Translations under genes and position numbers: made by a program | Part shown: piece after piece, positions 22,647 through 29,608 of the stretch | Position numbering within the stretch: position 1 is the first letter of the stretch | Layout: the number at the start of each line of letters is the position of its first letter | The notes under the pieces: model-generated | What the model was told of the DNA's origin: nothing | What the model saw: only the letters and a program-made list of their open reading frames with translations | Database searches by the model: none | NCBI GenBank assembly: GCA_003169235.1 | Contig: PMPX01000141.1 | Coordinates: 204-46,761 of the forward strand | Direction of reading: 5' to 3' | From: Acidimicrobiaceae bacterium | GTDB lineage: Bacteria > Actinomycetota > Acidimicrobiia > Acidimicrobiales > RAAP-2 | DNA: 46,558 bases

Positions 22647-22761
22647 AAGTCATCGGGCACTCGCCCCCTGTCGTCGCTCCATCAGATTCCCCGTTCTTCG
22701 TCGGCGACCTCACAAGCAACTGATCAGGTGTCACCCGTCCCTGTCTGTCGGTTCCACAGTG

Positions 22762-22835
22762 TGGGGGCGGAGGGAATCGAACCCTCACTGCGGACGGTTT
22801 AAGCGCCCTGCCTCTGCCAATTGGGCTACGCCCCC
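22762..22835 (-). tRNA. tRNA with anticodon UAA (predicted Leu, UUA codon) but short class-I variable loop
   Basis: GGGGGCG TA GCCCAATTGGCAGAGGC A GGGCG-CTTAAAC-CGTCC GCAGT GAGGG-TTCGATT-CCCTC CGCCCCC A; 7-bp acceptor, 5-bp anticodon stem (one G-U), 5-bp T-stem; CCA not encoded. Confidence 0.85.
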
Positions 22836-22923: not shown

Positions 22924-24495
22924 TCACGCGGGCACGCCCCACACGAGGGGGCGATGGCGCTCCAGGATCGCCAATTCTGAGTCGCGTGGCGCGTCCACGA
23001 GCTCCGTGCGTGCCCCGAAGATCATCGTGGCGCGACCCCCGGGGTCCCATGGGCGCCATTCACCGATCCCCCCGTGCGAGGGATTCCCGCTGCCGGCGAA
23101 CGCGAGCCACGCCCGCTGCATCTGGTCGGAGAGCAACTCGACGGCCGGCCCTGAGCCGGAGAGCATTTGCACCACCGGGAGGTGGACGGCCCCGAAGACG
23201 AAAGGCAGCTCAAGGGCGTGACACGCTCCGAGCATCCCGCCGAATGCAGGCGACTCCCAGTCGAAGAGGTACACGAACGTCAGCGCATCCTGCGCGGAGC
23301 GGGTTGCGGCGAGTTGCAGGCTGGGCCAACGGAAGACGACGTCGGTCCCGATGGCCACCCAGATGTCCTGAGCCTCCGCCGGCTCGTGGCGGGCGACCCG
23401 CGCCGCCCTGTATGCGTCAATGACGTCGACCGCCGGTATGTCGGGAACCGCGTTGGCCACCCAGCGCTGGACCCCCTCATCGTCCAGCGCCATCAGCGCC
23501 GGGTTCCCGAGTCCGAACAAGGTCAGCTCGTCCCGGTTGGTGCCGATCAGCAAGTCGATCCCGGTCGACGATCCGTTGGCCACCGCGACCATCGGATCTT
23601 CGGGAAGGAAGACCCCGTCGACGACCGGGAGGAATGGCAGTGGGATCATGCCCGGATCGGGACGCCGACGGCCGATCTCTTCCGTCGCGGCGACGAGATC
23701 GGCGGCGGGGATCCGCTCCAATGAGGCCCTCTCACAGGTTGCGACCCCGAGCACCGCGGCAAGGCGCTCCGCCGATCGCTCCGATTGCTCCACCGAGTGG
23801 ACGTGGATCCCCCCACTCTGGACCACGGCACGGCGGAACAACCCCGCCGCGGCCGGTGTGCCGAGCAGCGTGGCCACGCTGAACCCACCGGCAGACTCGC
23901 CGAAGATCGTCACGTTTGCGGCATCGCCGCCGAAGGCGGCGATGTTGTCGCGCACCCACGCCAGCGCGGCTACCTGGTCGTGGATGCCCCAGTTGCCGAC
24001 CAGGCCATCCGGACCGGCCAGGTCGCGGTGTCCGAGGAGGCCGAGGGCGCCGAGCCGGTAATTGATGGTGACCACCACGGCGTTGCCGTTGCGCACGAGG
24101 TTGCCGCCCCGGTACAGGAACACTGATCCGCTGCCCGACGTGAAGCCGCCCCCGTGGATGAACACCATGACGGGCCTGCCGTCACCGGGGCCGTGCGTGG
24201 GTGTCTCCGGCAGCTCCGGCGTCCAGACGTTCAGCGAGAGGCAATCCTCGCTGTGCGGTTCGGACGCCTCGGGGTCCGAAGGGCTCGTGATGCCGGGGAG
24301 CGCGGGCGATTGGGGTGCGATCGGCCCGAAGGTCGATGCGTCCCTGACTCCGTCCCAGGCCTCCGGCGGCTGCGGCGGACGCCAACGCAGAGCCCCGACC
24401 GGTGCCTGTGCATAGGGGATGCCGGAAAACGACCACAGATCGCCGCGCCACACACCCCTCAGGCGCCCCTGAGTGATGGACACGACTCCCTCCAT
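22924..24495 (-). CDS. Type-B carboxylesterase/lipase family protein
   Basis: FIHGGGFTSGSG oxyanion region, FGESAGGFSV nucleophile elbow, EDCLSLNVWTP signature. Confidence 0.92.
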   Translation of the reverse strand: MEGVVSITQGRLRGVWRGDLWSFSGIPYAQAPVGALRWRPPQPPEAWDGVRDASTFGPIAPQSPALPGITSPSDPEASEPHSEDCLSLNVWTPELPETPTHGPGDGRPVMVFIHGGGFTSGSGSVFLYRGGNLVRNGNAVVVTINYRLGALGLLGHRDLAGPDGLVGNWGIHDQVAALAWVRDNIAAFGGDAANVTIFGESAGGFSVATLLGTPAAAGLFRRAVVQSGGIHVHSVEQSERSAERLAAVLGVATCERASLERIPAADLVAATEEIGRRRPDPGMIPLPFLPVVDGVFLPEDPMVAVANGSSTGIDLLIGTNRDELTLFGLGNPALMALDDEGVQRWVANAVPDIPAVDVIDAYRAARVARHEPAEAQDIWVAIGTDVVFRWPSLQLAATRSAQDALTFVYLFDWESPAFGGMLGACHALELPFVFGAVHLPVVQMLSGSGPAVELLSDQMQRAWLAFAGSGNPSHGGIGEWRPWDPGGRATMIFGARTELVDAPRDSELAILERHRPLVWGVPA

Positions 24496-24628
24496 GGACG
24501 GCACCCTACGGACGGGGGCGCATCGGGTCAATCGTGACGAAGGTGAACACCACGCGAACAAGGGCTGCAACCCGACGGAAACGATGGGGTGCCGAATCTG
24601 CAACCACGCAGCCGTTACGCTTTGCCAC

Positions 24629-25912
24629 GTGGGTGCAGTGAATTGTCGGAGCACTGTCCGCAGGCGGAACCGTGTCGCCCGAGCGGCTGTCATCGTCGGG
24701 CTCCTTGGCGCCTGGTTCTCGACGGCTGCCACGACGGGCGCCGGAGCCACCGGCACGACGACCTCCACCACCTCCACCACCCTGCCCGGACCGGCGCCGA
24801 ACCAGTCGCAGATAAACGCGACGCAGTCGCAGGTCTCCCAGATCGAGGGCACCCTGACCCAGGAGGAGCAGCAGACGTCCATCCTCGACGACAAGTACAA
24901 CACTGCGGTCCAGGATCTCCAGAACGCGCAGACGGCGCTCCAGACCATCGGCACCAGCCTCCTGCACGCCCGGTCGGCGGTCGACGTGGACAAGCGGCTC
25001 GTGACGACCGACGCAGTCTCGGCGTACGTCTACGGGACGCCCGAGACGGGCTTTGCGTCCTACTTCTCCGCCTCGGCGACGGACAACGAGGCCCGCAACC
25101 AGTACACCGATCAGATCGTCGGGAACCTCACCAGGGACGAATCTGCGTTGCAGCGCTCCGAGGCGCGCCTGCAATCCGAGCAGGCCCAGCAGCAGACGGT
25201 GGCCGCGCAGGCGCAGCAGGAGGCGGCGCAGGCGAAGTCGCTGGCGCAGGCCAACGAGCAGGAGGCAGCCGCGACGAAGGCAACCCTTGGCCAGGTTCAG
25301 GGCCAATTGGCCCAGGAGGTCGCACAGGCCGCCATCCAAGAGGCCCAGCAGGAGGCCGCCGCAGCGGCCAAGGCTGCCAGCCAGGCCCAGCAGCAGCAGG
25401 CTGCCGCGGCGGCAGAGGCCGCCGCCACCGTCGCCGGAGCGGTCGGTGGGTCCTCGAGCGGGGCGGCGGCGACCGACGCGGCGAACCAGGCCTCGGGCAC
25501 CACTGGGCCGGTGGGCGGATCGGCGTCCGGGAGCGGTTCGGGGATGGCTGCGGTACAGGCGGCGGCGTCGCAGCTGGGCGTGCCCTACGTGTTCGGCGGC
25601 GAACAACCCGGCGTCGGCTTCGACTGCTCGGGCCTCGTGCAATGGGCCTGGGCGCAGGCCGGGGTGTCCATTCCGAGGACCACCGAAACGCAGTGGCCGG
25701 CCCTCCAACACGTGTCACTCGACGCTCTCGAGCCCGGTGACCTGCTCTTCTATTACAACCTCGACGGCGACAGCCAGGTGGACCATGTCGTGATGTACAC
25801 CGGCTCGGGACCATACGGGACGGACACCGTCATTCAGGCCCCGTTCACAGGCTCGACGGTCTCGTACTCTCCCATCTTCACCGAGGGTCTCATCGGGGCG
25901 GCGCGACCCTAG
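24629..25912 (+). CDS. NlpC/P60 family peptidoglycan hydrolase with N-terminal coiled coil
   Basis: GFDCSGLVQWAW catalytic Cys, QVDHVVMY catalytic His; signal-like N-terminus, Gln/Ala coiled coil. Start codon uncertain (GTG 24629 or 24638). Confidence 0.88.
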   Translation: MGAVNCRSTVRRRNRVARAAVIVGLLGAWFSTAATTGAGATGTTTSTTSTTLPGPAPNQSQINATQSQVSQIEGTLTQEEQQTSILDDKYNTAVQDLQNAQTALQTIGTSLLHARSAVDVDKRLVTTDAVSAYVYGTPETGFASYFSASATDNEARNQYTDQIVGNLTRDESALQRSEARLQSEQAQQQTVAAQAQQEAAQAKSLAQANEQEAAATKATLGQVQGQLAQEVAQAAIQEAQQEAAAAAKAASQAQQQQAAAAAEAAATVAGAVGGSSSGAAATDAANQASGTTGPVGGSASGSGSGMAAVQAAASQLGVPYVFGGEQPGVGFDCSGLVQWAWAQAGVSIPRTTETQWPALQHVSLDALEPGDLLFYYNLDGDSQVDHVVMYTGSGPYGTDTVIQAPFTGSTVSYSPIFTEGLIGAARP

Positions 25913-25972: not shown

Positions 25973-26854
25973 ATGGTCAGCGGGCGCCCGGTTGTCGGGG
26001 AGAAGGACCGGTCGACGGCCATCGTCCCGATCCGCGTGCCTGCTGAGCACGCCGACGAGGCGGAGGATCCCCGATTGTCCGACGTCGACGAGTGGGGTCG
26101 GTCCGAACGGACCCGGGCCCTGACCCGAGCGATCTACGAGCCGGTCTACTCGAAATGGTTCCGCGCTGAGTGGGAGGGCCTGGAGCGGATCCCGACCGAG
26201 GGTGGCGCCCTGCTCGTGGCCAACCACGCCGGGGCCATACCCTCCGACGCTCCGGTCATCATGCACGGGATTGAGAAGGAGCTCGGCCGCCCCGTCTACG
26301 GACTGGCCGACTACTTCTTCAGAACCATCCCGGTGGTGGGGACGCTGTGGGCACGCGCCGGCGGCGTGTCGGCCCGACCCGCCAACGCGTACCGCCTCCT
26401 CAAGGAGCAGCACCAGCTGGCGCTCGTCTTCCCCGAGGGGACCAAGGGCCCGTCGAAGTCCTTCACGGATCGCTACCAGCTCCGTCGCTTCGGGCGCGGT
26501 GGCTTCGTCGAGATCGCCATGCGGGCCGGCGTGCCCGTCATCCCCATCGCCGTCATCGGCTCGGAAGAGGCGATGCCGGTGCTCATGCGTGTGCCGACGC
26601 TGTCCAGGGCACTCGGCCTTCCCTACTTCCCGATCACTGCGAACCTCTTGGCCTTCGGCCCCCTCGGCATGTTGACCCCCTTCCCTGCCAAGTTCAAGCT
26701 GCGCGTTCTCGACCCGGTCCACTTCGACGTGCCGGCGGACCAGGACCGGTATTCCAAGAGCCGGATCATGGAGGAGTCGGAGCAGATCCGCTCACTCCTC
26801 CAGGAAGCGGTGTACGACATGCTGCGCGACCGACGCAGTGTGTGGTTCGGGTGA
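25973..26854 (+). CDS. Lysophospholipid acyltransferase family protein (PlsC-like, Rv0502-like)
   Basis: NHAGAIPSDAPV, FPEGTKG, DRYQLRRFGRGGFVEIAMRAGVPVIPIAVIGSEE, C-terminal RRSVWFG. Confidence 0.85.
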   Translation: MVSGRPVVGEKDRSTAIVPIRVPAEHADEAEDPRLSDVDEWGRSERTRALTRAIYEPVYSKWFRAEWEGLERIPTEGGALLVANHAGAIPSDAPVIMHGIEKELGRPVYGLADYFFRTIPVVGTLWARAGGVSARPANAYRLLKEQHQLALVFPEGTKGPSKSFTDRYQLRRFGRGGFVEIAMRAGVPVIPIAVIGSEEAMPVLMRVPTLSRALGLPYFPITANLLAFGPLGMLTPFPAKFKLRVLDPVHFDVPADQDRYSKSRIMEESEQIRSLLQEAVYDMLRDRRSVWFG

Positions 26855-26861
26855 GCCGGGA

Positions 26862-27899
26862 ATGAGCCGACGCGTGCTCGTCACGGGTGCGGACACCTTC
26901 TGGGGTGGCCGGATGGTCCAGGCCCTCGAGCAGGACCCCAGCATGGACGTGATCCTGGGCATGGGCGCCCACGCACCGTCGGTGCCGTTCGAGAGGGCCG
27001 AGTTCGTACGGGCGGACCAGACCTATTCCATCCTCAACCGGATCGTGAAGGCGACGCAGGTCGACACGATTCTGCACACGTTCATGATCACGAACTCGAC
27101 CACAGTGCCCAAGCGGGCCATGCACGAGATCAACGTGATCGGGACGATGAACCTCCTCGCCGCGGCCGGAACCGCCGGCTCCTCCGTCCGCCACATCGTC
27201 GTGAAGTCGTCGACACTCGTCTACGGCTCGGCGGCCAGCGACCCGAACACCTTCCACGAGGACACGCCGCGAACCAGCCCGGTGAAGAACGGCGTGGAGC
27301 GGGCGCTGGTCGAGGCCGAGAGCCTGGTGCGGGACTTCTCGGAGGACAACCCCGCCACCCGCGTCACCGTCCTCCGCTTCGCCAACGTCCTCGGCACCCA
27401 CCTGACCACCCCGATCAGCCGCAACCTGTCGGGGCCGCTGTGCCCGTCCATCTTCGGCTTCGATCCGATGCTGCAATTCGTGGAGGAGGACGACGTCGTC
27501 CGTGCCCTCGTCCATGTGACCCGGGGCAGCATCCCGGGCCTCTACAACGTGGCCGGCGACGGGCGGCTCCCCTGGAGCGAGGTGGCCGGCATCTGCGGGA
27601 CGCGGCTCGTCCCGCTGTCGCCCTTCAGCCCGCTGAAGATCCGCCCGGTCGCCAGGCTCTTCGACCTTCCCGAGGAACTGGCAGACCTGCTCCGTTACGG
27701 GCGTGGAGTCGACACGCGACGGTTCGCCGCCACGGGATTCACCTACAACGCCACGAGTGCCGGTGCGGTGCGCACGTTCATCAGGGCGCTTCGGCTCCGG
27801 CGGCAGTCCGGCCGGGAGCCGACGTCGTACACCTACGAGCACGACGTCGAGCAGTTCTTCCGCCACTCGCCGTCGGTGATGGGCACTCACGAGCCCTGA
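26862..27899 (+). CDS. NAD-dependent epimerase/dehydratase-like protein (Rv0501-like), YxxxK not apparent
   Basis: RRVLVTGADTFWGGRMVQAL, ERAEFVRADQ, VVKSSTLVYGSAASDPNTFHED. Confidence 0.8.
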   Translation: MSRRVLVTGADTFWGGRMVQALEQDPSMDVILGMGAHAPSVPFERAEFVRADQTYSILNRIVKATQVDTILHTFMITNSTTVPKRAMHEINVIGTMNLLAAAGTAGSSVRHIVVKSSTLVYGSAASDPNTFHEDTPRTSPVKNGVERALVEAESLVRDFSEDNPATRVTVLRFANVLGTHLTTPISRNLSGPLCPSIFGFDPMLQFVEEDDVVRALVHVTRGSIPGLYNVAGDGRLPWSEVAGICGTRLVPLSPFSPLKIRPVARLFDLPEELADLLRYGRGVDTRRFAATGFTYNATSAGAVRTFIRALRLRRQSGREPTSYTYEHDVEQFFRHSPSVMGTHEP

Positions 27900-27902
27900 G
27901 GC

Positions 27903-28523
27903 TCAACCGGCGATCCACTCCGCCACGAGGCTCGGCTCACGGTCGGCCCACTCCTCGGCCGTGATCGCATAGCGCACGTGGTCCTCCCAGACGCCGTCGA
28001 TCTCGAGGAACCGCAACGCGACCCCCTCCTCCCGGATGTCCAGCTTCTCGACCACTCTGCGGCTGGCGAGGTTCCTCGGGATGATCGAGATCTCCACCCG
28101 GTGCAGCGAGATCGTCTCGAAGGCGAAGCGCAACGCGACGACGACGGCTTCGGGCACCAGTCCCCGGCCCGCCATGGCCTCGTCGATCCAATAGCCGATG
28201 AACCCGCTCTGGAACGGGCCACGCTGAATGGACGACAGCGTCACCTCGCCGGCGAAGCGCTCGCCCACGAAGATGCCGAAGCCATAGCCGGTGCCCAGGT
28301 GCCTCTCGCGCTCGCGGATGCCGCATCGGGCGGCGAAGCTGGGGCGATCCTCCAATGGCACCGGGGCGCCCTTGGGGCGCGGCTCCCAGCGCAACAACCA
28401 GTCGGCACATCGGGTCCTGACCTCGTGCCAGGCCGGGAAGTCGTCCTCGCTGAGCGATCGCAGCGACACCCGTCGGCCGCGCAGTTCCAATGGCGCGTGG
28501 CGCACCGCTCTCGCTGCACTCAT
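27903..28523 (-). CDS. GNAT family N-acetyltransferase (RimJ/RimL-like)
   Basis: GYWIDEAMAGRGLVPEAV, RVEISIIPRNLASRRVVEKL; ATGA overlap with upstream aminotransferase. Confidence 0.88.
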   Translation of the reverse strand: MSAARAVRHAPLELRGRRVSLRSLSEDDFPAWHEVRTRCADWLLRWEPRPKGAPVPLEDRPSFAARCGIRERERHLGTGYGFGIFVGERFAGEVTLSSIQRGPFQSGFIGYWIDEAMAGRGLVPEAVVVALRFAFETISLHRVEISIIPRNLASRRVVEKLDIREEGVALRFLEIDGVWEDHVRYAITAEEWADREPSLVAEWIAG

Positions 28524-29608
28524 CGACCGAGTACCTCCTTCATGGCGCCGAGCAGCGCGAACACGTTTCGCCGTCTGGCCGTGTGTCCCATGCAGCCGAC
28601 GCGCCAGACCTGCCCCGCGAGCCGGCCCGCACCGGCGCCGATCTCTATGCCGTAGGAACGCAGCAGCTCCCGGCGGCACGCGGCATCGTCGACGCCGTCG
28701 GGCACGCGGACCGTCGTGAGCTGGGGGAGCCGATGGTCGGGCTTCACCAGGAGCTCCAGCCCGAGGGCGACCAGCCCGTCTTGCAGGAGATTGCCGCACT
28801 CGGCGTGTCGCCTCTGCGCCGCCTCGATGCCCTCGTCGAGCAGCACCCCGAGGCCGGCGTGCAGAGCGGCCACCATCGCCACAGGTGCGGTGTGGTGGTA
28901 CACCCGCCCTCCGCCGGTTGAGTCGTTGACGTAGCGCGAGAGCAGGTTGAGGTCGAGGTACCAGCTGGACGGCCGCTCGACGACCCGGTCCATGGCACGC
29001 GGGGACACCGTCAGCGGCGAGAGCCCGGGCGGGACGCCCAGGCATTTCTGGGTTCCGCTGTAGGCGATGTCCACTCCCCAGTCGTCGACGGAGACCTCAA
29101 TTCCCCCGAGCGAGGTCACCATGTCCACCAGCAGCAGCGCGTCGCCCTTGCCGCTCCCGAGCGCCTCAATCTCGTTACGCACCCCCGTAGAGGTCTCGGC
29201 GTGCACCACCGCGATGATCGCCGGCGACGGATGGGCCGCGAGGAGCCGGTCGGGGTCGATCGGTTCACCCCACTCGGCCTCCACCCGGATCACGGCGGCG
29301 CCGTGGCGGGTGGCGACCTCGCACATCCGCTCCCCGAAGACACCGTTCACCCCGACCACGACGGGGTCCGCCGGCCGGACGAAGTTGACGAAGGACGCCT
29401 CCATGCCGGCCGACCCCGTCCCGCTGAGCGGCAGGGTCAGCTGATTCGACGTCGCAAAGACCCGGCGGAGGCGGTCGTTCGTCTGGTCGAGCACCTGGAG
29501 GAACTGAGGATCGAGGTGCCCGAGCACCGGTCCGGCCAGTGCCATGGTGACTTCGGGGTACGGATTCGAAGGCCCGGGCCCCATGAGCAGGCGGTCGGAA
29601 ATCCCCAC
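28520..29608 (-). CDS. Class-V PLP aminotransferase (serine-pyruvate / alanine-glyoxylate aminotransferase-like)
   Basis: LMGPGPSNPYPEV, DMVTSLGGIEVSVDDWGVDIAYSGTQKCLGVPPGLS (PLP Lys), WRVGCMGHTA. Confidence 0.9.
   Translation of the reverse strand: MGISDRLLMGPGPSNPYPEVTMALAGPVLGHLDPQFLQVLDQTNDRLRRVFATSNQLTLPLSGTGSAGMEASFVNFVRPADPVVVGVNGVFGERMCEVATRHGAAVIRVEAEWGEPIDPDRLLAAHPSPAIIAVVHAETSTGVRNEIEALGSGKGDALLLVDMVTSLGGIEVSVDDWGVDIAYSGTQKCLGVPPGLSPLTVSPRAMDRVVERPSSWYLDLNLLSRYVNDSTGGGRVYHHTAPVAMVAALHAGLGVLLDEGIEAAQRRHAECGNLLQDGLVALGLELLVKPDHRLPQLTTVRVPDGVDDAACRRELLRSYGIEIGAGAGRLAGQVWRVGCMGHTARRRNVFALLGAMKEVLGR

Follow-up and report, generated by a model that had tools for sequence, protein, structure and literature searches.

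Bacterial tRNA-Leu is regarded as always having a long variable arm. In class II tRNA-Leu(UAA), of which Streptomyces bldA is an example, this arm has 13-18 nt and accompanies A73, the A15:U48 pair and a 3-bp D-stem with a Leu-type loop. The leucine determinants of E. coli are A73, A15-U48, G18G19 and A20a, the sequence and fold of the long arm being unneeded (PMC9976931), and minimal E. coli tRNA-Leu variants that lack the arm are still leucylated but need A73 and D-T loop contacts (Larkin 2002, as cited in PMC9976931). Similarly, mitochondrial tRNA-Leu(UUR) has no long arm, and its LeuRS charges it via A73 and A14 (PMC9976931). Short-loop tRNA-Leu genes are also found in actinophages and in a mycobacterial tRNA cluster, where a short-loop tRNA-Leu(TAG) stands next to the normal copy (PMC6582537).

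The tRNA gene analysed here, which lies in a window of 46,558 nt (the whole stretch of DNA under study), can be compared with each of these systems. Like class II tRNA-Leu(UAA), it has the anticodon UAA, A73, A15:U48 and a 3-bp D-stem with a Leu-type loop, and class II genes occupy the same locus in sister families; its variable loop, however, has 5 nt, and the class I form carries A9 and C13 where class II genes mostly carry G9 and G/A13. The arm-less E. coli variants are artificial constructs, whereas the class I gene is natural and conserved. Mitochondrial tRNA-Leu(UUR) is organellar and has its own LeuRS, whereas in our case four class II tRNA-Leu and one class I tRNA would depend on a single LeuRS. 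Finally, the phage and cluster tRNAs have a short variable loop and a Leu annotation in common with our gene but are accessory copies whose anticodons, where read, differ (WRightOn serves the CUA codon, the cluster tRNA has TAG), while the class I gene of the source family is the only UAA gene of the chromosome. We conclude, with a probability of roughly 90%, that the tRNA at 22762-22835 is the sole UUA-decoding tRNA-Leu of the cell, in a class I form.

Structure and conservation of the tRNA gene

Direct reading of the minus strand gives a complete cloverleaf with a 7-bp acceptor stem (GGGGGCG/CGCCCCC), a D-arm GCC-CAATTGGCAGA-GGC with an 11-nt loop, an anticodon arm GGGCG-CTTAAAC-CGTCC with a 5-bp stem and the loop CUUAAAC, and a T-arm GAGGG-TTCGATT-CCCTC, also with a 5-bp stem (Table 1). 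ARAGORN calls tRNA-Leu(taa) at 22761-22835 on the minus strand as the sole tRNA of the window, and the Rfam model RF00005 (gathering score 29) matches 22762-22835 at full length (model positions 1-71, 52.3 bits, E=1.7e-8). The original prediction of a minus-strand cloverleaf with the anticodon UAA at 22799-22801 thus holds in every feature and coordinate, the covariance model agreeing with ARAGORN and yielding no different anticodon, and the 5-nt class I loop GCAGT is borne out by reading and by the Rfam match. With this loop the tRNA falls short of the class II form, which has a variable arm of at least 10 nt, and its 7-bp acceptor and 5-bp T stem differ from the 8/4 or 9/3 acceptor/T stems of allo-tRNAs.

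Table 1. Features of the tRNA gene and its neighbourhood (positions in the window)
Feature	Position	Strand	Basis
tRNA-Leu(UAA), class I form, 74 nt, no encoded CCA	22762..22835	-	ARAGORN; RF00005, 52.3 bits; 57/61 family genomes
Discriminator A73	22762..22762	-	A in 143/143 distinct sequences
Variable loop GCAGU, 5 nt; last base U48 pairs with A15	22787..22791	-	A15:U48 in 142/143, exception G15:C48
Anticodon UAA, flanks U33 and A37	22799..22801	-	ARAGORN, Rfam; invariant in relatives read
D-loop CAATTGGCAGA, 3-bp stem, Leu-type 17-nt D-arm	22813..22823	-	Arm length, A15:U48 and A73 Leu-only in sampled family tRNAs
Carboxylesterase ORF 5' of the tRNA, probably with an internal true start; repeatedly found next to class I genes	22924..24993	-	PF00135, E=6.1e-104
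PlsC-type acyltransferase; synteny marker common to class II loci	25973..26854	+	Pfam PF01553
NAD-dependent epimerase; synteny marker common to class II loci	26838..27899	+	Pfam PF01370
ORF, C-terminal part GNAT-like acetyltransferase by eye; synteny marker common to class II loci	27903..29045	-	ORF list

Conservation in relatives, a check named with the prediction, is extensive: by DNA match, 57 of the 61 genomes of the family carry a close copy, and the anticodon UAA and the short loop recur in all 30 family loci that were read. Among 143 distinct class I Leu(UAA) sequences, both-sided changes keep the pairing at 16 of 20 stem pairs, the second pair of the anticodon stem being seen as GC, CG, AT, TA, GT and TG. 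A73 is invariant in this set, and in the single sequence that departs from A15:U48 both partners have changed, to G15:C48. The 5-nt variable loop is invariant as well, its spacing being fixed by the search pattern for many sequences, as A20a and G18G19 partly were. It is because of the close copies in the family and of the covarying stems that we regard 22762-22835 as a real tRNA gene, far beyond chance. Four family genomes (G014, G019, G042 and G059) gave neither a pattern match to either Leu(UAA) form nor a close DNA match, which may reflect incomplete assembly, a divergent gene or loss.

A probable sole decoder of UUA

The source assembly (3.75 Mb, 380 contigs) encodes class II Leu tRNAs with the anticodons CAA, TAG and GAG, and no further UAA tRNA was found in it. 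Since this assembly is only 82% complete, the status of sole decoder rests on better genomes of the family. Three of them (G012, G041 and G024) each contain nine class II tRNAs, namely Leu CAA, CAG, TAG and GAG, four Ser and one Tyr, and a fourth (G028) contains ten, two of which are Leu CAG. These full class II sets lack a Leu(UAA), and each of the four genomes has one class I copy. In 100 relatives, a pattern search allowing either arm length found the class I form in 65 (57 of the family and 8 of other families), the class II form in 18 and both in none; absence rates are rough because tRNAs with other D-loops are missed by the pattern. The second, class II tRNA-Leu(UAA) that had been proposed as a check is therefore missing from the four family genomes, and in the pattern search it never stands alongside the class I gene. 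It is possible that another tRNA-Leu reads UUA by wobble.

Codon usage and the comparison with bldA

UUA had been described as very rare in the window, and it had been suggested that the tRNA could be a limiting decoder like bldA, kept scarce and gating the few genes that contain UUA. The rarity is evident: the window ORFs contain one UUA among 11,969 codons, and in the GC-rich source genome 305 called ORFs with 107,097 codons contain 15 TTA, a count that is approximate because ORFs were called by a simple rule. However, the rarity is in line with base composition, as 16.2 TTA codons are expected from TTG x CTA / CTG against the 15 observed, and their positions are spread along genes without skew towards the start. 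In G028, TTA occurs in 152 of the 170 kept genes with flat positional deciles and is commoner than the same product predicts (424 vs 178). A bias of UUA towards gene starts has been published for streptomycetes only (PMC4255298). The pattern of a bldA-like system, UUA below composition and concentrated at gene starts, is thus absent from the source genome, and nothing points to a bldA-like regulatory role for the tRNA; we consider such a role highly improbable.

Leucine identity

Could the tRNA carry another amino acid, UUA being reassigned or ambiguous? The short variable loop is atypical for Leu and the letters of the D region resemble those of Lys and Asn tRNAs, but the meaning of the codon argues otherwise. 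From an 800-kb portion of G028 (54.8% GC), 170 conserved proteins were aligned to relatives with TTA masked, and Leu was aligned at 60% of 265 TTA sites, vs 56% for TTG, 55% for CTG and 52% for CTA. The class I gene is the expected reader of UUA there because it is the only Leu(UAA) gene found in that genome. Single TTA codons placed on PDB alignments had Leu and Val partners, one query being without a PDB match; the comparison at 265 sites supersedes these alignments. A leucine-codon anticodon is thus combined with a codon that a relative reads as Leu, and the determinants A73, A15:U48, G18G19 and A20a are all present in the tRNA.

The original prediction had called the D-loop and A73 Leu-like. 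Among tRNAs sampled from family genomes, a 17-nt D-arm with a 3-bp stem is combined with A15:U48 and A73 in Leu tRNAs only; Lys tRNAs have A15:U48 and A73 in common with Leu but carry a shorter, 4-bp D-arm, which argues against a Lys identity, and Ser is disfavoured by A73 and the missing long arm. A tRNA charged with another amino acid is, on these grounds, hardly tenable; the alternatives of a non-Leu or regulatory tRNA that had been raised find support neither in the TTA sites of G028 nor in codon usage. The identity and role of the gene, described at the outset as unclear, are largely settled by the lack of class II Leu(UAA) in four genomes and by the reading of UUA as Leu in G028. Pairwise identities bring the class I gene no nearer to class II Leu than to tRNAs of other kinds, and a core-sequence tree over 70 columns, built to ask whether it derives from class II Leu or from another class I tRNA, was without support.

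One LeuRS scored above the family cut-off in each of 13 genomes, the source included, and it is likely, judging from the determinants, that this enzyme charges the tRNA. LeuRS profile matches of several family members skip TIGR00396 positions 568-604, which we take to lie near the leucine-specific domain. The same gap is present in a class II carrier (G091) and in a genome of another family (G320), and other matches break near model position 142; across the LeuRS hits of the family genomes, G091, G320 and others, no correlation of profile breaks with tRNA class was found.

We propose that transcription and processing of the gene follow the normal course for a tRNA, CCA presumably being gained post-transcriptionally. 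Leucine would be charged by a single bacterial-type LeuRS via A73, A15:U48 and the Leu-type D-loop, not via the long arm, as the conserved determinants suggest, and UUA would be read as leucine in ordinary translation, the meaning of the codon coming from comparison and its tie to this tRNA from exclusion.

One locus, two architectures

In the window, the genes for a PlsC-type acyltransferase, an epimerase and a GNAT-like protein lie 3.6-5.4 kb from the tRNA. With side and orientation unchanged, this block is next to class II tRNA-Leu(UAA) in four genomes (G080, G079, G074 and G071), and one of its genes adjoins the class II gene in five others (G062, G072, G076, G085 and G093); none of it was seen within the stretch read at some class II loci, e.g. 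G066 and G083. Next to class I genes the block is found in families f1, f9, f22, f28, f33, f38 and f39; it is reduced to the GNAT gene in part of f1 and inverted in f14. The carboxylesterase ORF recurs in its position next to class I genes. As the block is common to class I and class II loci, a single locus holds tRNA-Leu(UAA) in either form, and the class I gene is no addition at another site. It would have arisen from a long-armed gene, or replaced it, in place, because the same locus holds class II tRNA-Leu(UAA) in sister families.

In a tree of two neighbouring proteins (15 taxa, one locus), the class I carrier G073 groups with the class II carriers G071 and G079 with a support of 99, which suggests more than one class switch at this locus. 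The class I Leu(UAA) of G073 (L340, L074) is of a different sequence type and inverted relative to the PlsC block; possibly, it is an independent switch. Class I matches are patchily distributed over 298 genomes of the order, and families f14 and f29 are mixed. It is tempting to speculate that the Leu(UAA) locus switched between long and short forms more than once under a single LeuRS, perhaps through replacement by phage-borne short tRNAs, and that loss of the arm was selected, e.g. as an escape from a nuclease or inhibitor that recognises the arm or because it distinguishes the UUA decoder from the four other leucine tRNAs, but we regard this scenario as rather doubtful.

Distribution in actinobacteria and phages

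The short class I form is widespread in actinobacteria and not peculiar to the source genome. The same acceptor and anticodon arm occur in Acidimicrobiaceae and Acidimicrobiales records (L121, L168), and the matches listed from a GTDB pattern scan include class I Leu(UAA) genes of Mycobacterium, Nocardia, Gordonia, Rhodococcus, Amycolatopsis, Nocardioides, Microbacterium, Arthrobacter relatives, Bifidobacterium, Actinomadura, Streptosporangium and acidimicrobials. Both Leu(UAA) forms are present across 397 genomes of the phylum, sometimes in one family. We also take leuW of M. tuberculosis to be annotated as a 74-nt tRNA-Leu(TAA). The guess that the type may not be unique was therefore right, the form recurring in many actinobacterial genera, and so was the suggested likeness to actinophage genes: similar short tRNA-Leu genes exist in phages of Mycobacterium, Streptomyces, Erwinia and others.

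A few class I records among the matches listed in the GTDB scan are labelled as other phyla. By record label, class I Leu(UAA)-like genes occur, among the matches listed, in Christensenellaceae (L102), Planctomycetota (L111), Rokuibacteriota (L114), Gemmobacter (L117), Chloroflexaceae (L135) and Deltaproteobacteria (L136); these may reflect independent origin, transfer, phage or misbinned contigs. In one record (L205), ARAGORN makes two Leu(taa) calls, of 72 and 75 nt, whose 3' halves are almost identical; the tRNA gene may be duplicated or chimeric there, or the two readings may overlap.

That the gene is a mobile or phage-derived accessory tRNA and not a core gene, as the phage genes and the short-loop tRNA-Leu(TAG) beside the normal chromosomal copy in the mycobacterial cluster (PMC6582537) might suggest, has a near-negligible probability, since the tRNA stands alone in the window, the class I gene is mostly single copy and keeps, in different genera, a stable place amid ordinary genes, and the checked genomes have neither a second UAA tRNA nor, in relatives, a class II UAA isoacceptor. 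An old phage-mediated replacement at the Leu(UAA) locus is possible.

Implications

The best reading is that 22762-22835 encodes an ordinary sole UUA decoder in an unusual but recurrent class I form, probably charged by LeuRS. We found no description in the open-access papers searched of a class I tRNA-Leu(UAA) as sole decoder in actinobacterial chromosomes, and an earlier one is possible. What stands out is not the function, which is ordinary, but the switch of architecture at one locus. In many actinobacteria, including mycobacteria, the UUA decoder has a short arm, and within one order a single syntenic locus alternates between the long and the short form. Class I Leu(UAA) genes may be misjudged by isotype models or filters built to expect a long arm. 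The pairs of long and short loci are natural material to test the role of the arm in LeuRS recognition, processing and modification, and they also bear on why the UUA isoacceptor alone lost its arm.
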